10,371 nucleotides of DNA. Origin: Microcaldota archaeon (lineage in GTDB: Archaea > Iainarchaeota > Iainarchaeia > JAADDC01). Below the pieces are notes generated by a model. The model had not been told where the DNA came from, ran no database searches, and saw only the letters and a list, made by a program, of their open reading frames with translations. Made by a program: the position numbers and the translations under genes. The stretch is from assembly GCA_027000685.1 (NCBI GenBank), contig JALTNN010000066.1, positions 1-10,371 of the forward strand. Reading direction: 5' to 3'. Below are positions 665 to 9,204 of this stretch, piece by piece (position 1 is the stretch's first letter; each line of letters begins with the position of its first letter).

Positions 665-1096
665 GTGGAGAAGCCCCGTATCTCCTTCTCGGAGCCCCCG
701 GCGAACCTCGAGAAGAAGCTCCTCTCACTCGAGAGGGAGCTCCTCCTCCTGAAGAACAGGGTATCGAAGATCGAGGAGCTCCTGAAGGAGACGGGTATAC
801 TGAGGAGGGAGGAACCGGAAAGCGCTCTGCTAACGGAGATAGACGTGAGCAATCCCAGGGTCGTGGAGCTCCTTATGGACTGGGTAGGCTTCATGCTCTC
901 GAAGGTGGGGGAGGAGGAGTTTCCCACACTCCTCGACTACTACGTCTCCATAGGCTGGATATCGAAGAGCGTGGCTGAGCTCCTCCTGAGGTACTCGAAG
1001 GGGCTCCGTGTGGAGTCCTACAGGGGATACATGGAACCTGAGGATCATGTGAAGTCGCTCGAGTATATAAACAGGATAAGGGAGGCGATGGGATGA
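665..1096 (+). CDS. ArlD/E (FlaD/E)-type domain protein with N-terminal coiled coil
   Basis: The 143-residue protein starts at GTG 665; the frame has a stop at 635-637 and no other start before 665. Residues 15-42 are a leucine/charge-rich heptad stretch, likely a coiled coil. Residues 57-142 match the archaellar D/E domain pattern as I recall it: an LTEI-like opening, NPR (63-65), a Leu-Leu-x-Asp-Trp helix, KVG, DYYVSIGWIS (91-100), and a closing DHVKSLEYI. In known archaella, ArlC/D/E sit at the base of the motor and link it to chemotaxis (CheY via CheF). Here no archaellum gene is visible. The gene instead overlaps a MinD-like ATPase by ATGA (1093-1096), so the two are probably co-translated partners. 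It may be a diverged ArlD/E-family adaptor rather than a true archaellum component. The family call is fairly secure; the role is inferred. Confidence 0.72.
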   Translation: MEKPRISFSEPPANLEKKLLSLERELLLLKNRVSKIEELLKETGILRREEPESALLTEIDVSNPRVVELLMDWVGFMLSKVGEEEFPTLLDYYVSIGWISKSVAELLLRYSKGLRVESYRGYMEPEDHVKSLEYINRIREAMG

Positions 1097-1956: not shown

Positions 1957-2196
1957 ATGGCATCGAAAAAGCGTTCTATCCTGGACCATGTTTTTGTTCC
2001 CAAGGCGCGGGTGCTTTCAGAAAAGGAGGTGGAGGAGCTACTGAGGAGATACAGGGTGACCAAGGAGATGCTCCCGAGAATTCTTGAAACGGATCCCGTG
2101 GTTGTGGAGCTCGGTGCAAAGAAGGGAGACGTGATCGAGTTCGTAAGGAACTCCCCCATCGCGGGAAGAAGTATATATTACCGCGTGGTGGTATGA
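1957..2196 (+). CDS. rpoH: DNA-directed RNA polymerase subunit H (Rpb5-like)
   Basis: The 79-residue protein matches archaeal subunit H, the counterpart of the C-terminal domain of eukaryotic Rpb5. It sits in the lower jaw near downstream DNA. Diagnostic features are an early HVFVPK segment, a conserved glutamate/lysine helix ([13 protein letters not shown]), LPRI followed by TDPVV, the turn GAKKGDVIE, and a terminal [14 protein letters not shown]. Length and order fit the family (about 75-80 residues). ATG 1957 is chosen because of the Shine-Dalgarno motif at 1947-1951. It is the first gene of the polymerase operon, as in most archaea, and its stop overlaps the rpoB'' start (ATGA at 2193-2196). 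No odd residues stand out, in contrast to the large subunits that follow. Confidence 0.95.
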
Positions 2197-3665
2197 TGGG
2201 CTACTGGGAGCTGGTGGACGCATATTACCGCTCCGAGTCACTCGTGAGCCAGCACATAGACTCCTACAACCAGTTCGTTGAGGAGAGGCTCCCCGAGATC
2301 ATAGAAGATCACTCCGTTATCGATCCCGAAGTGGGAGACCTCGTCATAGAGATAAAGGGCTACCACATAGAGAGGCCCTACGTCACAGAGATAGACGGGG
2401 CCGTGAGGAAGCTCTACCCCATGGAGGCGAGGATAAGGAACAGGAGCTACATGGCATCGCTATATCTGGACATGATCGCCATAAGGAGGAACGTGGAGAT
2501 ACAGAGGGCGAGGATAAGGATCGGTGAGATACCAGTCATGGTGAAGTCTAACCTCTGCTGGCTGAACGGGCTCTCCCCGAAGGAACTCATCAGGCTCGGC
2601 GAGGATCCCCTTGACCTCGGCGGTTACTTCATAATAAACGGTATTGAGAAGGCCCTCATAGCCCACGACGAGCCAGCTCCTAACAAAATAATGGTCTCGA
2701 GAGCCGACGAGCAGAAGACGAAGATCATCGCTCAGGTCTTTTCGAGGAGGGGCGCGTACACGGGGAAGACCATGGTGATAAGGAGAAAAGACGGTATATG
2801 GAACGTCTCCTTCCCCTCCGTCCTCCAGATAAGGTGGACCGTCCTCATGAGAGCCCTTGGTTTCACAGACGACCAGGAAATCCTCGACGCGCTCATAGGG
2901 GAAAAGGAAGTCGTGAACGACGTCCTCCTCAACCTGGAACAGTCCGATGTTAAGACGGAGGAGGAGGCCCTCGAGGTAATAGGCAGGATCGTGGCACCGG
3001 GTCAGATAAGGGAGTACCAGCTGAGGAGGGCGCAGGAAGTCATTGACAACTTCCTCCTCCCCCACATAGGGACGGATCCCGAGCACAGGAAGGCGAAGGG
3101 CTACTTCCTCATAAGGATGGCGGAGAGGACATCCGAGGTTTACTACAACCTCCGCCCCATAGACGACAAGGACCACCTCGCCAACAAGAGAATAGAGCTC
3201 TCTGGAAGACTCATGGAGACGCTGTTCGTCTTCGCCCTCAGGACACTCATAAGGGATATAAGGTTCCAGGTGGAGAGGGCCCTCGCGAGGAGAAAGAGGA
3301 TAAGGCTCCAAACGATCGTGAGACCCGGTGCGTTCACGGATGCCATATATTTCGCAATGAACACGGGTACCTGGCCAAACAGGAGGACGGGTGTGTCCCA
3401 GATTCTCAACAGGACCAACTTCATAGCCCCCATATACGAGCTCAACCGTGTGAAGTCTCCCCTATCAAAGAAGAGGAAGAACTTTGAGGCAAGAGAGGTC
3501 CACGGAACCCATTTCGGTAGGTTCTGCCCGATACAGACACCTGAGGGACAGGCGTGTGGTCTCGTGAAGCACTTTGCCCTCATGGCAAGGACCACAACCG
3601 CGTCGGATCCCTCGAGGATAGAGAGGTTGCTCAGGAAGCTGGGCGTGACAACGGTGGTAGGATGA
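2193..3665 (+). CDS. rpoB2: DNA-directed RNA polymerase subunit B'' (N-terminal half of RpoB)
   Basis: The 490-residue protein corresponds to the protrusion, lobe and fork part of the second-largest subunit, split from B' as in methanogens, Archaeoglobales and halophiles. Visible motifs are [11 protein letters not shown] in the first third, KDHLANKR near the protrusion/lobe return, RTGVSQ before the fork, [13 protein letters not shown], and the cleft segment [16 protein letters not shown] (437-452) continuing as QACGLVKH. The start is ATG 2193 or ATG 2196. GGTGGT at 2186-2191 is better spaced for 2196, while 2193 gives the ATGA overlap with rpoH. The stop overlaps the next start at 3662, which is the usual B''/B' breakpoint. 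Compared with archaeal B subunits as I recall them, the stretch QACGL replaces PNCGL and resembles eukaryotic Rpb2, and the SHLRR fork motif reads YELNR. The gene identity is certain; the odd residues are treated under findings. Confidence 0.96.
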
Positions 3666-3859
3666 AAGAAGCGAAGGTTTACGTTAATGGCAGGCTCCTC
3701 GGCTTCCACCCAGACCCGAGGAAGCTCGTGGAGGAGCTAAGGAAGAGGAGGAGGAGCGGTCAGATACCCTACACGGTCTCCGTGACCTACTACGAGAACA
3801 CAAACGAGGTCTACATTACACCGACGCCGGAAGGCTTGCCCGCCCCCTCATCGTGGTGA
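3662..3859 (+). CDS. rpoB1: RNA polymerase subunit B', N-terminal fragment before a reading-frame break
   Basis: Translation from ATG 3662 (ATGA overlap with the rpoB'' stop) gives 65 residues. The first 52, from [14 protein letters not shown] through NEVYI, match the normal start of archaeal B', with its VYVNGRLLGFHPDP and VSVTYY segments. After the ATT codon at 3815-3817 this frame gives 12 residues with no family resemblance and then a TGA at 3857. The expected continuation, TDAGRLARPLIVV, is encoded one frame over from 3820. This fragment is therefore the true beginning of rpoB', separated from the rest by a one-base change. As it stands the product would be a short piece of the external domain/wall region. 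A genuine small separate subunit is possible but less likely. Confidence 0.75.
   Translation: MKEAKVYVNGRLLGFHPDPRKLVEELRKRRRSGQIPYTVSVTYYENTNEVYITPTPEGLPAPSSW
3815..3823 (+). other. Frameshift junction within rpoB'
   Basis: Homology passes here from the frame of ATG 3662 to the frame of the downstream 540-residue reading frame. Family members, as I recall them, read Ile-Asn/Ser/Thr-Thr-Asp-Ala-Gly-Arg at this point. The sequence has ATT, then AC, then ACC GAC GCC, so one base is missing from a codon such as AAC. No classical X-XXY-YYZ slippery heptamer is visible across the junction. With one base restored the gene runs 3662-5475 and encodes 604 residues. Confidence 0.75.
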
Positions 3860-5475
3860 AGAACGGGAAACCCCTCCTAACCCAGACGCACGTGAAGATG
3901 CTGAAGGAGGGTAAGCTCACTTGGGACCAGCTCGTCAAGCAGGGTGTCATCGAGTACTTAGATCCTGAAGAGGAAGAAAATGCCTACATTGCTTTGACGC
4001 CTGAGGAGGTGACGCCGGAGCACACCCACCTCGAGATACATCCCGCTCTCGTCCTCGGCTTCGGCGTGAACCTCATCCCCTGGCCCGAGAGAAACCTCAC
4101 GACGCGTCTCCTCCACGGTTCAAAGATGGGGGACCAGGGCCTCGGCCTCTACGCCTCCAACTTCAGGATAAGGACGGACACCATGAGCTACGTCCTCTAC
4201 TACCCCCAGAAGCCTATTGTGAGGACTCGGGTTGTGAAGTATGCACACCTCGAGAGGAGGCCCTACGGGCAGAACATCGTCGTGGCCGTCATGCCTTACG
4301 AGGGCTACAACATGAGCGACGCTATCATCATGAACAAGGATTCCATAGAGAGAGCCCTCTTCAGGGCCGTCTTCTTCAGGACATACGAGGCCGTTGAGAG
4401 GAGGTATCCCGGTGGCCAGAAGGACAGGTTCGAGGTACCGTCGGAGGAGGTGAGCGGATACCTCGGTGAGGAGGTCTATCACGCCCTCGGAGAGGACGGG
4501 ATCGCCATTCCCGAGACGAGGGTGAAGGGCGGCGACGCACTCATAGGGAGGACGTCACCGCCGAGGTTCCTCGAGGACGTGGCCCACTTCGGGATCATGG
4601 AGGAGAAGAGGAGGGAGAACTCCGTCCTCGTGAGGCCTGACGAGGAGGGCTATGTGGATACGGTGATGATAACCTCCGATGAGAACGGAAACAGGCTCGT
4701 GAAGATAAAGCTGCGTCAGGAGAAGATCCCCGAGATAGGAGACAAGTTCACGGCGAGAATGGGGCAGAAGGGAGTCATAGGGATGATAGTTCCCCACGAG
4801 GACATGCCCTTCACGTCAAACGGCATCGTCCCGGACCTCATCTTCAACTCCCACGCGTTCATATCGAGGATGACGGTTTCCTACGTCCTCGAGATCCTCG
4901 GGGCAAAGGCCGCCGCCCTCGAGGGCTGGGACGAAGTGGACGCGACGATGGGAGAGGGGATGGAGGCGGAGGAGTTCGAGAAGGTACTGAGGGCCCACGG
5001 CTTCAGGAGGACGGGCAAGGAGCTCCTATATGACGGAAAGACCGGGGAGGAGATAGAGGCCGACATCTTCATAGGGCCCATCTACTACCTCAGGCTCAAG
5101 CACCTCGTCTCCCAGAAGTATCAGGCGAGGGCGAGGGGTCCCGTCCAGATCCTCACGAGGCAGCCCACAGAGGGGAGGTCAAGGGAGGGCGGTATAAGGT
5201 TCGGTGAGATGGAGAGGGACACCCTTATCGGCCACGGGGCGGCCATGACGCTCTACGAGCGTCTCGTGGAGGAGTCCGACAAGACGAAGATGCTCGTGTG
5301 CGAGAAGTGCGGGAATATAGGTGTTGATGATGCTATAAGGAAGAAGAGGTACTGTCCCGTGTGCGGATCCACGAAGGTTCAGGAGGTTGAGGTCTCCTAC
5401 GCCTTCAAGCTCCTCCTGGATGAGCTAAGATCCCTCGGGATATACCCAAGACTCGTGTTGAAGGACAAGGCGTGA
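3853..5475 (+). CDS. rpoB1: DNA-directed RNA polymerase subunit B' (C-terminal half of RpoB), main part after the frame break
   Basis: This subunit forms much of the active-centre wall, hybrid-binding domain and clamp anchor. The frame is open from 3688, and family similarity begins at 3820. GTG 3853 is only the first formal start and has no ribosome binding site. Recognisable segments are VIEYLDPEEEENAYIA, PYEGYNMSDAI, RRYPGGQKDRFEVP, GRTSPPRFLE, KIPEIGDKFTARMGQKG (both active-centre lysines kept), EDMPFTSNGIVPDLI, GPVQILTRQPTEGR, GGIRFGEMERD and a C-terminal zinc ribbon (CEKC at about 5299, CPVC at about 5353). It ends in SYAFKLLLDEL followed by PRLVLKD. Several near-universal positions differ: RNLTTRL where archaea have HNQSPRN, RMG for RHG, and NSHAFISRM for NPHAIPSRM. 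It is followed by rpoA' after four bases. The reading frame otherwise looks under selection, not decayed. Confidence 0.93.
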   Translation: MVKNGKPLLTQTHVKMLKEGKLTWDQLVKQGVIEYLDPEEEENAYIALTPEEVTPEHTHLEIHPALVLGFGVNLIPWPERNLTTRLLHGSKMGDQGLGLYASNFRIRTDTMSYVLYYPQKPIVRTRVVKYAHLERRPYGQNIVVAVMPYEGYNMSDAIIMNKDSIERALFRAVFFRTYEAVERRYPGGQKDRFEVPSEEVSGYLGEEVYHALGEDGIAIPETRVKGGDALIGRTSPPRFLEDVAHFGIMEEKRRENSVLVRPDEEGYVDTVMITSDENGNRLVKIKLRQEKIPEIGDKFTARMGQKGVIGMIVPHEDMPFTSNGIVPDLIFNSHAFISRMTVSYVLEILGAKAAALEGWDEVDATMGEGMEAEEFEKVLRAHGFRRTGKELLYDGKTGEEIEADIFIGPIYYLRLKHLVSQKYQARARGPVQILTRQPTEGRSREGGIRFGEMERDTLIGHGAAMTLYERLVEESDKTKMLVCEKCGNIGVDDAIRKKRYCPVCGSTKVQEVEVSYAFKLLLDELRSLGIYPRLVLKDKA

Positions 5476-5479
5476 GAGT

Positions 5480-8107
5480 ATGGCGGGGAAGAAGACGATA
5501 GGGGCCATTGAGTTTGGGGTGCTCTCCCCCGAGATGATAAGGAAGATGAGCACGGTAGAGGTGACAATACCCGAAACCTATGATGCCGACGGCTTCCCCA
5601 TAGAAGGGGGGCTCATGGACCCGAGGATGGGCGTGGTCGATCCGGGGCTAAGGTGCAAGACGTGTGGCCAGAAGATGAACAGGTGCCCCGGTCACTTCGG
5701 GAGGATTGAGCTTGTCAGGCCTGTCATACACACGGAGTACGTGAAGTACGTGGAGGGCTTCCTCCACGCCACATGTCCAAAGTGCGGGAGGATTGTGTTT
5801 CCGGACGAGACCATAGAGAAGGTGAAGAGGAAGTTTAAGCCTAAAACGAGGTTCAAGCACTTTGCGAAGAAGGGCTCTGAGGTGAGGAAGTGTCCCCACT
5901 GCGGATTCGAAAGACCGAAGATAAAGTTTGAGAAGCCGGCCAACTTCTTCGAAGTGACAGAGGATGGGGAGAAGAGGATATGGCCCACCGAGATAAGGGA
6001 GAGGCTTGAAAGGATACCGGATAAAGATGTGGAGGCCCTTGGATTTGATCCGACAAGGTTCAGGCCTGAATGGCTGATTTTGACCGTCCTTCCAGTTCCG
6101 CCTGTCACCATAAGGCCTTCCATCATCCTCGAGACTGGTGAGAGGGCCGAGGACGACCTCACACACAAGCTCGCGGACATCGTCACCATAAACCTGCGTC
6201 TCAGAGAGAACATAGATGCAGGGGCACCTCAGCTCATAATAGAGGACCTGTGGGACCTCCTCCAGTACCACGTCACCACGTTCTTCAACAACGAGGCCCC
6301 AGGAGTTCCCCCGGCGAGGCACAGGTCAGGGAGACCCCTGAAGACGCTCGTCCAGAGGCTTAAGGGCAAGGAGGGTAGGTTCAGGTACAACCTCTCCGGG
6401 AAGAGGGTGAACTTCGCCGGGAGAAGTGTCATAACTCCCGATATAAGGATATCCGTGGGGGAGGTAGGCGTTCCAAGACAGATGGCCGAGGAGGTGACGG
6501 TCCCCGTCCACGTCACGGAGTGGAACATAGAGGAGGTTAAGAAGCTCATAATGAGGGACGAGTACCCGAGGGCCCTATACATCGTGAGGCCCAACGGATC
6601 GAGGAAGAGGATAACACCGGACAACAGGGAAGATATACTGGAAGAGCTCGCACCGGGCTACATAGTTGAGAGACAGGTGATGGACGGCGACATAGCACTT
6701 TTCAACCGCCAGCCGTCCCTCCACAGGATCTCCCTCATGGCCCACAGGGTCAGGGTGCTTCCCGGAAAGACGCTCAGGATAAACCCCCTCGCGAACAAGC
6801 CTTACAACGCAGACTTCGACGGAGACGAGATGAACATTCACTTCGTTCAGACCAAGGACGCCCAGACAGAGGCAAGGGAGATCATAGCCGTGAAGTACAA
6901 CATGCTCTCGCCCCGCCACGGGAGGGTGCTCGTGACGGCAGACGAGGACGCTGTCACGGGAATGTTTGTCCTTACGTGGAAAGACACGAAGTTCACGAGG
7001 GAACAGGCAGCCCGCCTCCTCTACAGCGTGGGGATCACCGATATCCCAGAACCAGACGAGGACGGGATGGTGTCCGGCAAGAAGGTATTCTCGAAGCTCC
7101 TCCCGAAGGGTGTGAATTTGGAGTTCCCTGCCAAGCTCTGCAAGATTGTGAAGGAAGTGGGCTACTGCAAGGGCGACTGTAAGAAGTGTGAGTACGATGC
7201 CTACGTCGTGATAAGGGATGGAGAGCTCGTGTCCGGAGTGATAGACGAAGCCGCCGTGGGGGCGGGAGGGAAGCTTGTGGACTACATTTACAGGGTTTAC
7301 GGGCCTGACGTGGCCCAGGACTTCGTTGACAAGATGGGGATAATATCCACCCTCGTTTTCGACATCCTCGGTTTCACCATCTCTTACGAGGAGCTCAAGA
7401 TATCGGAGGAGACCCGGAAGAAGATAGAGAAGATCCTCGAGGAGGGAGAGAAAAAGGCGAACGAGTACATAAAGCTCTATGAGGAAGGGAAGCTTGAGCC
7501 CATCCCGGGCTTCTCGGAGAGGGAGAGCCTCGAAATATACATAATCCAGTCCCTCGAGGAGGCAAGGAAGGAGGTGACGAGGCTCGTCCAGAAAGAGAAG
7601 TTCGAGGAATTCCTCAGGAACCCGAAAGCGGCCCAGGGCTTCATAATGATCATCTCCGGTGCGAGGGGAAGGATATCCAACATTATAAACATGTCTGCCA
7701 TGCAGGGCCAGGCCTACGTGAGGGAGAGGAGGCCTCACAGGGGCTTCATGGACAGGGTCACGGCCCACTTCAAGCCCGGGGACATCTCGCCAAGGGCAAG
7801 GGGCTTCGTGAAGAGGTCTCTGAAAGATGGCCTCGGAATGCTCGATCTGTTCTTCTGGGGTATGGGAGGAAGGATAGGAGAGGTGGACAAGGGCGTGTCA
7901 ACGCAGATTTCCGGCTACTACTATAGACGCCTATCAAACGCCCTCATGGACGTCGTGGTGTTCCCCGATGGAACGCTGAGGGAAGTGACAAACGACTACA
8001 TCGTCTCCTTCAAGTTTGGAGATGACGGCCTCTTCCCGATGTACGCCCTGGATGGGAGGCTCCCGCTCGACACTCTACTCGGCATGATAAGGGGTGGTAA
8101 GAAGTGA
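5480..8107 (+). CDS. rpoA1: DNA-directed RNA polymerase subunit A' (N-terminal part of the largest subunit)
   Basis: The 875-residue protein has the usual length for archaeal A'. The N-terminal clamp holds one zinc site, Cys59/Cys62/Cys69/His72 (CPGHFG), and a second pair of CxxC motifs (Cys99/102 and Cys138/141). The clamp/rudder region reads GKEGRFR then NLSGKRVNF. The metal-binding loop NADFDGD is intact at 443-449, so catalysis is preserved, preceded by FNRQPSLHR. A cysteine cluster before YDAYVVIRDGEL is typical of the family. The bridge helix region (796-818) keeps GGR, SGY and RRL, but the middle reads DKGVSTQI where other polymerases have DTAVRTAQ or close variants, and the preceding GARG segment (727 on) is also unusual. 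The gene starts four bases after rpoB' and overlaps rpoA'' by GTGA at 8104-8107, the standard archaeal A'/A'' split. Identity is certain. Confidence 0.97.
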   Translation: MAGKKTIGAIEFGVLSPEMIRKMSTVEVTIPETYDADGFPIEGGLMDPRMGVVDPGLRCKTCGQKMNRCPGHFGRIELVRPVIHTEYVKYVEGFLHATCPKCGRIVFPDETIEKVKRKFKPKTRFKHFAKKGSEVRKCPHCGFERPKIKFEKPANFFEVTEDGEKRIWPTEIRERLERIPDKDVEALGFDPTRFRPEWLILTVLPVPPVTIRPSIILETGERAEDDLTHKLADIVTINLRLRENIDAGAPQLIIEDLWDLLQYHVTTFFNNEAPGVPPARHRSGRPLKTLVQRLKGKEGRFRYNLSGKRVNFAGRSVITPDIRISVGEVGVPRQMAEEVTVPVHVTEWNIEEVKKLIMRDEYPRALYIVRPNGSRKRITPDNREDILEELAPGYIVERQVMDGDIALFNRQPSLHRISLMAHRVRVLPGKTLRINPLANKPYNADFDGDEMNIHFVQTKDAQTEAREIIAVKYNMLSPRHGRVLVTADEDAVTGMFVLTWKDTKFTREQAARLLYSVGITDIPEPDEDGMVSGKKVFSKLLPKGVNLEFPAKLCKIVKEVGYCKGDCKKCEYDAYVVIRDGELVSGVIDEAAVGAGGKLVDYIYRVYGPDVAQDFVDKMGIISTLVFDILGFTISYEELKISEETRKKIEKILEEGEKKANEYIKLYEEGKLEPIPGFSERESLEIYIIQSLEEARKEVTRLVQKEKFEEFLRNPKAAQGFIMIISGARGRISNIINMSAMQGQAYVRERRPHRGFMDRVTAHFKPGDISPRARGFVKRSLKDGLGMLDLFFWGMGGRIGEVDKGVSTQISGYYYRRLSNALMDVVVFPDGTLREVTNDYIVSFKFGDDGLFPMYALDGRLPLDTLLGMIRGGKK

Positions 8108-9204
8108 CGCTCCCCGAGAAGCTCAGGGAATACGTGGAGAAGTTTGCAGAGGAGAAAGGCCTCTCGAAGAAGGAGAGGGAGGCCCTCCTCAAGAAGGCCG
8201 AGGAGTACTACGAGACCCACCAAGTAGATCCTTGGGAAGCCATAGGCATTGTCACCGCCCAGTCCCTCGGTGAACCCGCAACTCAGGCAACGCTCAGAAC
8301 TTTCCACATGGCCGGGGCAGCCGAGGTCTCCATAGCCTCCGGCATGGATAGGATCCTGGAGATAGTCGATGGTCTGAAGAAGATCTCAACGCCCGTTATG
8401 TTCATCTATCTCAATCCCCCCTACAACAAGGACGAGGAGAAGGCCCGCGAGTTCGCACGATCACTCGAAGAAATCCTCGTCATGGACGTCGCCACCGTGA
8501 AGGAGGACTTCATGAAGAGGACGATAACAATAGTCTTCAACGAGAAAGAGCTGAAGAGAAGAGGGGTATCCAAGGATGCCGTGATAAAAAAGATAGAGGG
8601 GAAGCTGAAGGGTGAGCTCGACGAGAAGACGGGCAACTATGTCATAAAGCTCCCGAAGGATATGAGCCTCATGAAGATAAGAAAGCTCGCCCAGTCCATA
8701 GAGAGGCTCCAGATTTCGGGTGTAAAGGGGATAAAGAGAGCCCTCGTGAGAAAGGAAGGCGACGAGTACATGATAACAACGTCCGGTACAAACCTCAAGG
8801 CAATACTGAAGAAAAAGGAAGTGGACCACACGAGGACGTACTCCAACAACATCCACGAGGTGGCAGAAGTTCTTGGAATCGAGGCGGCAAGGTATCTCAT
8901 CATAGAGGAGCTCTACAAGGCCTATATGGGAGCGAAGCTCCTCGTTGACAAACGTCACCTCGCGCTCGTGGCAGATGCCATGACAGCGAGGGGCGTAATA
9001 ACCCCCATAGGGAGGACGGGTATAGCGGGGAAGAAGGGATCCGTGCTCGCAAGGGCCGCCTTCGAAGAGACAAATAGGCACCTCGTGGAGGCGAGTGTGT
9101 GGAATGAGGTGGATTATTTAAAGGGTATTGTGGAAAATCTCATCGTCGGACTCCCTATAAAGGCCGGTACGGGAAGGGTCAAGCTCAAGATGAAGTTAGG
9201 GTGA
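8104..9204 (+). CDS. rpoA2: DNA-directed RNA polymerase subunit A'' (C-terminal part of the largest subunit)
   Basis: The 366 residues supply the trigger loop, part of the jaw/cleft and the C-terminal clamp segment of the largest subunit. GTG 8104 overlaps the A' stop, with GGGGTGG at 8091-8097 as ribosome binding site. The trigger-helix region runs from VDPW (41-44) through AQSLGEPATQ to RTFHMAG; the catalytic-loop histidine is His68. The jaw follows, and the C-terminal part has the standard YSNNIHEVAEVLGIEAAR, PIGRTGIAGKK, SVLARAAFEET and a GTG turn near the end. Unusual against the families I remember are Trp44 for Gly, Thr51 for Ala in the AAQS motif, Ala62 for Met/Leu beside the nucleotide-contacting helix, and Asp82 for Pro in the GxPR motif. 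GEPATQ is shared with eukaryotic Rpb1. It is normal in length and its frame is intact. Confidence 0.97.
   Translation: MTLPEKLREYVEKFAEEKGLSKKEREALLKKAEEYYETHQVDPWEAIGIVTAQSLGEPATQATLRTFHMAGAAEVSIASGMDRILEIVDGLKKISTPVMFIYLNPPYNKDEEKAREFARSLEEILVMDVATVKEDFMKRTITIVFNEKELKRRGVSKDAVIKKIEGKLKGELDEKTGNYVIKLPKDMSLMKIRKLAQSIERLQISGVKGIKRALVRKEGDEYMITTSGTNLKAILKKKEVDHTRTYSNNIHEVAEVLGIEAARYLIIEELYKAYMGAKLLVDKRHLALVADAMTARGVITPIGRTGIAGKKGSVLARAAFEETNRHLVEASVWNEVDYLKGIVENLIVGLPIKAGTGRVKLKMKLG

Follow-up and report, generated by a model that had tools for sequence, protein, structure and literature searches.

The bridge helix encoded in the window (the whole 10,371-nt stretch of DNA analysed here) belongs to the only RNA polymerase subunit A' found in the source genome, and its form is inherited by an archaeal phylum, which we take to be Iainarchaeota (the Iainarchaeota/Diapherotrites group). 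Its altered residues are a real inherited feature of the lineage; neither gene damage nor misread bases lie behind them. Judged from sequence comparison and published mutants, it seems slightly more probable than an even chance that the enzyme is a working polymerase whose bridge-helix/trigger-loop unit has been re-balanced, and where loss of the basic residue at position 820 (R820; M. jannaschii numbering of A', mjA') would be tolerated on a background of either Lys at position 817 (K817) or a Lys in the trigger loop.

The gene order rpoH, rpoB'', rpoB', rpoA1 (A'), rpoA2 (A'') and L30e is present in the window with Pfam support for all six genes, including PF01191 for rpoH and an L7Ae/L30e protein that closes the operon; the ORFs that follow presumably encode NusA-like and S12-like proteins. 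With Rpb1 domains 1–5 in order by Pfam and the metal-A motif NADFDGD by direct reading, A' is assigned to Rpo1N. The motif is complete in the window and invariant across a 54-row alignment, and the best-matching solved chain was 8cro_A (930.6 bits). The source genome (544 kb) gave a single A' match; a second, ordinary A' copy was sought there and not found, a provisional result because the genome is 79% complete. Upstream of rpoH, window positions 665–1096 and 1093–1866 encode a protein with an archaeal-flagella D/E domain (PF04659) and an ATPase resembling ParA/MinD. The rpoB' gene is broken between the Rpb2 domain-4 part and the remainder (3662–3859 and 3853–5475). It is one open frame of 605–620 aa in 8/8 family relatives examined and in genome f2, and the interruption probably stems from faulty assembly or from a frameshift of recent origin.

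Table 1. RNA polymerase genes and active-centre features, in window coordinates
Feature	Position	Strand	Observation
rpoB'', N-terminal part	2193..3665	+	Pfam; Gln at 3534-3536, where most others have the first Glu of ETPEG
rpoB', larger C-terminal ORF	3853..5475	+	PF00562, PF04560, PF04567
Link region NLTTRLLHGSKMGDQG	4093..4140	+	Arg kept; Lys of 'KQ' replaced by Asp (7/7 family loci read; outside Lys 63/64, one gap)
Metal-B motif YNMSDA	4306..4323	+	Ser replaces the first acidic residue; the second, Asp, is kept
GDKFTARMGQKG	4738..4773	+	Both lysines kept; A-R-M replaces the usual S-R-H
rpoA1, RNA polymerase subunit A' (Rpo1N), 875 aa	5480..8107	+	Five Pfam Rpb1 domains
Bridge helix segment, aa 796-818, GGRIGEVDKGVSTQISGYYYRRL	7865..7933	+	Direct reading and alignment
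E801, mjA' L814 position	7880..7882	+	Acidic in 72/73 phylum sequences; mostly Leu elsewhere
K804, mjA' 817 position	7889..7891	+	
S807, mjA' R820 / E. coli beta' K789 / yeast Rpb1 K830 position	7898..7900	+	mj and yeast numbers follow PMC8204694 and PMC5127505
Q809 and I810, mjA' A822 and Q823 positions	7904..7909	+	
rpoA2, subunit A'' (Rpo1C) including the trigger loop	8104..9204	+	PF04998
Trigger loop EPATQATLRTFHMAGAAEVSIASGMDRILE	8272..8361	+	Ala at yeast M1079 site, Asp at P1099 site; F1084 and H1085 sites kept

Codons 796–818 of A' read exactly as the earlier note had given them. In M. jannaschii numbering, as used in the available text of PMC8204694 and PMC2776397, the window has E814 D816 K817 G818 V819 S820 T821 Q822 I823 S824 G825 Y826, and DKGVSTQISGY aligned onto DTAVRTAQSGY or DTAVRTSQSGY of the solved archaeal Rpo1N chains. 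This alignment bears out the claim that the basic residue (E. coli K789) has become Ser while the next Thr is retained. Ordinary archaeal Rpo1N chains (8cro, 4qiw, 2pmz) share with the window the GGR start, T821, the SGY hinge and the RR end, at ∼50% identity over A', but have DTAVRT[A/S]Q and Leu814 where the window has DKGVSTQI and Glu814. An AlphaFold model of A' alone (mean pLDDT 77.9, pTM 0.58) placed helices at 787–796, 799–806 and 808–822; the seeming gap at S807 does not count as evidence of a broken helix, because pLDDT was below 50 over 797–822.

DKGVSTQI was found in 10/10 genomes of the window's family, which comprises two genera, and is followed by Ser in five and Thr in five, one residue per genus; the motif thus does mark a clade, a point that had been suggested as a check. 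Four codons (TCA, TCC, TCG and TCT) are used for Ser820 within the family, and over codons 803–813 the window differs from each of nine relatives by 3–7 synonymous and 0–1 non-synonymous changes. A protein collection held 14 further clusters of the type, 13 with DKGVSTQI[S/T] and one with DKAVSTQIS, and the other three of its 18 matches (P0016–P0018) have Arg at 820. A sequencing or assembly error in the source genome might be suspected because the same contig holds one likely error, the rpoB' interruption that is open in 8/8 relatives, but identical bridge-helix residues in all ten family genomes and DKGVSTQI in 13/14 further clusters (DKAVSTQI in the other) refute this explanation for the bridge helix and leave it a negligible chance. 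As the ten genomes share the residues over synonymous codon changes, neither error nor decay accounts for them, and a pseudogene reading of the helix, which we considered, is ruled out by the family-wide residues and synonymous-dominated codons. The gene is intact and constrained, as the earlier note held in describing it as not decayed; an intact, constrained and clade-wide gene would also fit its further suggestion that the enzyme is functional.

We surveyed position 820 and its neighbors among archaea. Of 87 genomes of the phylum searched, 75 had a bridge-helix match and 12 had none; the helix could be read in 74 of the 75 (it is cut off in G069), giving 73 distinct A' sequences. Together with 188 sequences from outside the phylum, a set that is not random since 30 genomes were picked for weak matches, the data comprised 261 distinct archaeal sequences and 254 trigger loops; L008 and L166 were left out for an incomplete bridge helix. 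Position 820 in the phylum is Ser in 64, Ala in eight and Lys in one (L165), and thus non-basic in 72/73. Outside, it is Arg in 153, Lys in 17, Val in 8, Asn in 4, Leu in 2, Gln in 2, Ile in 1 and His in 1. Non-basic residues therefore occur in 90/261 sequences, 72 of them in the phylum, and all 120 proteins listed of the 264 passing a second protein search had Ser or Ala at 820. Acidic residues at 814 were found in 73/261 sequences, namely 72 in the phylum and L176 from outside, which combines E814, K817 and a non-basic 820 as in the window. When the main type of the phylum was used as a query against 389 genomes, no helix outside the phylum exceeded 66.3 bits, with the main type at 80 or more and the outside sequences read only at the fetched loci.

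The description of the replaced residues as near-universal roughly fits 820, where Arg or Lys is present in 170/188 outside sequences, but not the Thr and Ala positions. Outside the phylum, position 817 is Thr in 132, Lys in 43 and another residue in 13; position 818 is Ala in 133, Ser in 35 and Gly in 20; and position 822 varies freely (S 60, A 49, P 27, R 21, Q 15, K 9, G 6, E 1). T821 is retained in 185/188 outside, and SGY or TGY in 261/261. These counts show that the consensus given in the earlier note, D-T-A-x-(K/R)-T-A-(N/Q/E), which does describe the common archaeal type, is too strict for archaea overall, in particular for several small-genome lineages. Nor is the variant singular, given the number of non-basic 820 residues and the presence of K817 and G818 outside the phylum. 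Many ordinary archaea with the same residues were named beforehand as grounds for rejecting the idea, and these grounds apply in part: the phylum's other lineages also have E814, S or A at 820 and, mostly, G818, yet they carry T817, K822 and V823.

Kinship labels of the genomes agree with the phylum grouping. Phylum membership was first coded by motif together with three named loci, and recoding by kinship label brought no contradiction; four unlabelled loci are duplicates of phylum genomes or are named Diapherotrites or ainarchaeum. Genomes of the same class as the window include archaeon GW2011_AR10 (G012, the same as L017) and MAGs whose names include Diapherotrites or ainarchaeum (L032, L039, L043, L071). 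In a bridge-helix-masked A' tree from a quick search, with 15 phylum rows among 56 hand-picked ones, the phylum was monophyletic with an SH-aLRT of 99; in a 259-row FastTree, from which 2/261 sequences were excluded as too short, support for the group was only 58. Outgroup rooting was used; midpoint rooting gave a misleading order of states. Two loci titled Diapherotrites (L033 and L035; DKGIRTAK, Arg kept) place outside the phylum, and L031, titled Micrarchaeota, sits in the window's genus.

Loss of the basic residue at 820 goes with one of two lysines in nearly all cases. The 90 sequences with a non-basic 820 divide into 29 with K817, 58 with a trigger-loop Lys, two without a recovered trigger loop and a single one with neither (L071; EAKLSIRE), which fits neither route. 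Within the phylum, K817 is found in the window's family (10) and in L024. The main Iainarchaeota lineage has T817 in 60 sequences, and its trigger loop, recovered in 58 of them, has Lys at the yeast F1084 site in 58/58. Outside the phylum, K817 accompanies 18/18 non-basic and 25/170 basic 820 residues (Fisher p 1e-13, a value that ignores kinship). Exceptions in the other direction are the 25 sequences with K817 and a basic 820 and six with a trigger-loop Lys and a basic 820. A pairing of Glu814 with the trigger-loop Lys was considered and is not claimed, as L165 (K820) carries the trigger-loop Lys beside Met814. One parsimony reconstruction over the 259-row tree required only five changes at position 820 and three at the trigger-loop site, and it placed the loss of K817 together with the gain of the trigger-loop Lys on the basal branch of the main lineage. 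When K817 was set against 820 loss in independent pairs, four pairs were supported and K817 differed in about 1/4 of them, so that significance was unreachable; the test with either K817 or trigger-loop Lys as the trait likewise had too few events for power. Compensation by either lysine is thus inferred and not statistically secured.

Published mutants, as described in the portions of those papers available to us, bear on each of these positions. In yeast, K830 adjoins trigger-loop V1094 when the loop is closed and pairs with D826 (PMC5127505). R820 of ordinary enzymes would similarly pair with the bridge-helix Asp four positions before it and pack on the closed trigger loop; therefore its loss should weaken trigger-loop closing. 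All substitutions of mjA' R820 but F and W are said to lose activity (PMC8204694), and certain R820 changes are reported to raise activity moderately (Tan 2008, PMC2776397). At neighboring sites, Q817K makes the enzyme superactive and Q823I strongly lowers its activity (Weinzierl 2010, PMC2988716), A822Q gives a mild or modest loss (Tan 2008, PMC2776397), and in the yeast trigger loop M1079A is a gain-of-function and F1084K a loss mutant (PMC10069792). The window thus brings together some changes that, made alone in other enzymes, raise activity (817K, M1079A) and others that lower it (820S, 823I, 822Q); the mjA' mutants of Tan 2008 and Weinzierl 2010 (Q817K, A822Q, Q823I, R820X) affect the same positions, but as single changes, while the window holds several natural ones together.

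In the window's family, where Ala occupies the M1079 site in 10/10, the counter-changes would be Lys817, one helical turn before 820 and on the same side of the helix, with Glu814 (i/i+3), and the trigger-loop Met-to-Ala replacement; in an ideal helix, 60 degrees and 5.6 Å (C-beta) separate residue 817 from 820, and likewise 814 from 817. The main Iainarchaeota lineage would rely on the Phe-to-Lys change in its trigger loop. The enzyme may stay active because these changes push in the opposite direction; it would then add nucleotides by the ordinary cycle, with its open/closed balance shifted, comparable to the active, substituted enzyme of Nanoarchaeum equitans. F-to-K is not an obvious rescuer, because the single F1084K change causes loss of function in yeast.

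It is also conceivable, if clearly short of probable, that the central bridge-helix side chains facing away from the active site readily accept replacement, so that a near-neutral variant was fixed by descent and both Lys changes are unrelated to it. E. coli K789A is described as wild-type-like (data not shown there; PMC5791816) and K789Q is viable with only minor effects on complex stability (PMC9254596), both from the available text of those papers, and for this reason compensation may be unnecessary; elsewhere 820 can be V, N, L, Q, I or H, and independent 820 losses are few. Tolerance of this kind is at odds with the restriction to F and W stated for M. jannaschii, with Ser or Ala in 72/73 of the phylum over silently changing family codons, and with the single non-basic sequence (L071) among the 88 with a trigger loop read that lacks both K817 and a trigger-loop Lys.

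The alteration is broader than the earlier note had seen, since the trigger loop, the link region and the metal-B site differ too (Table 1). Counts at these sites cover the loci reached by alignment, and we take the yeast and E. coli site names in subunit B, mapped by motif, to be the corresponding ones. The P1099 site is Asp in 10/10 of the window's family and Gln in 57 and His in one of 58 main-lineage sequences; Pro was found in 178/180 outside. The first metal-B acid is D in four, M in two and S in one of the window-family loci and L in 31, M in eight, T in two and F in one of 42 main-lineage loci; outside, Glu is present in 56/65. SRHGQKG reads AR[M/G]GQKG in 7/7 and ETPEG reads QTPEG in 9/9 window-family loci, the link Arg is Lys in 38/39 main-lineage loci, and the site matched to F545 is Phe in 9/9 of the family, Tyr in 21/21 of the main lineage and Phe in 62/63 others.

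Such a spread of substitutions could reflect relaxed selection in small-genome archaea that degrades the whole active centre, with the bridge helix as one symptom. The replaced metal-B acid (42/42) and link Arg (38/39) of the main lineage, the family's own QTPEG (9/9) and KQ-to-DQ (7/7) changes and the comparable substitutions reported for N. equitans are in keeping with it. We regard it as improbable: many of the changes are fixed per lineage, change in the family's bridge-helix codons is mostly synonymous, and the first Asp of DFDGD, the metal-B Asp and both GDK/QKG lysines are unchanged in every sequence counted, as is the trigger-loop His throughout the phylum (178/180 outside). A tentative further idea, less likely to hold than to fail, is that the phylum rewired the coupling of bridge helix and trigger loop: the positive charge that most archaea carry at 820, and E. 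coli and yeast at the matching site, would have been relocated, to 817 with a new Glu814 in one lineage and to the trigger loop beside the catalytic His in the other, with the link and metal-B changes accompanying it and a different rate-limiting step or metal need as the outcome.

Among the other Iainarchaeota, archaeon GW2011_AR10 (P0019/L017), for example, shares the phylum, E814, G818 and S820 with the window but has DTGVSTKV with trigger loop TQLTLRTKHYAG where the window has DKGVSTQI with TQATLRTFHMAG. The nearest precedent is the N. equitans polymerase, which is active when reconstituted despite radical substitutions (Nottebaum and Weinzierl 2021, PMC8204694). As far as the available text describes it, both enzymes are substituted in the bridge helix, trigger loop, fork loop 3 and metal-B site, but N. 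equitans has a Pro (P810) two residues past a kept R808 (equivalent to R820), whereas the window has Ser820, Lys817 and no Pro. The nanoarchaeal-type mark, Pro at 822, is accordingly absent, the window having Gln. Related substitutions in Woesearchaea and Pacearchaea are mentioned in the same report, the available main text of which does not name Diapherotrites or Micrarchaeota. Literature searches on the bridge helix or trigger loop of Diapherotrites, DPANN or Iainarchae yielded no report of the variant in the search listings. The M. jannaschii polymerase is said to accept only F or W besides R at 820, yet Ser and Ala are found across this phylum and V, N, L and Q in other lineages. These lineages offer natural, testable cases of epistasis in a component that ranks among the most conserved of the transcription apparatus, and they add to the N. 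equitans report a further branch that has its own solution.

Several individual sequences had unusual active-centre regions. Of the bridge helices and trigger loops read in the phylum, those of L071/L126 (G011) diverge furthest, with EAKLSIRESGY, in which T821 is replaced by Ile, and SQGALRAFHTAG. The usual trigger-loop His is absent in 5/254 trigger-loop windows, at least three of which look like intein junctions. His at the yeast H1085 site is Thr (MRSYT[M/L]A) in L183 (G331) and L197 (G211), with Gln or His at 820. The trigger-loop sequence of L180, L271 and L289 stops at TQMS or restarts after a THN end, as in an intein-like insertion in A'', and the GI[I/V]THN trigger-loop windows of L053 and L068 are likewise intein-like. 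Finally, A' and A'' are apparently fused in a single ORF of 1269–1381 aa in some Iainarchaeota (L118 in G018, L131 in G038, P0112 and P0127).
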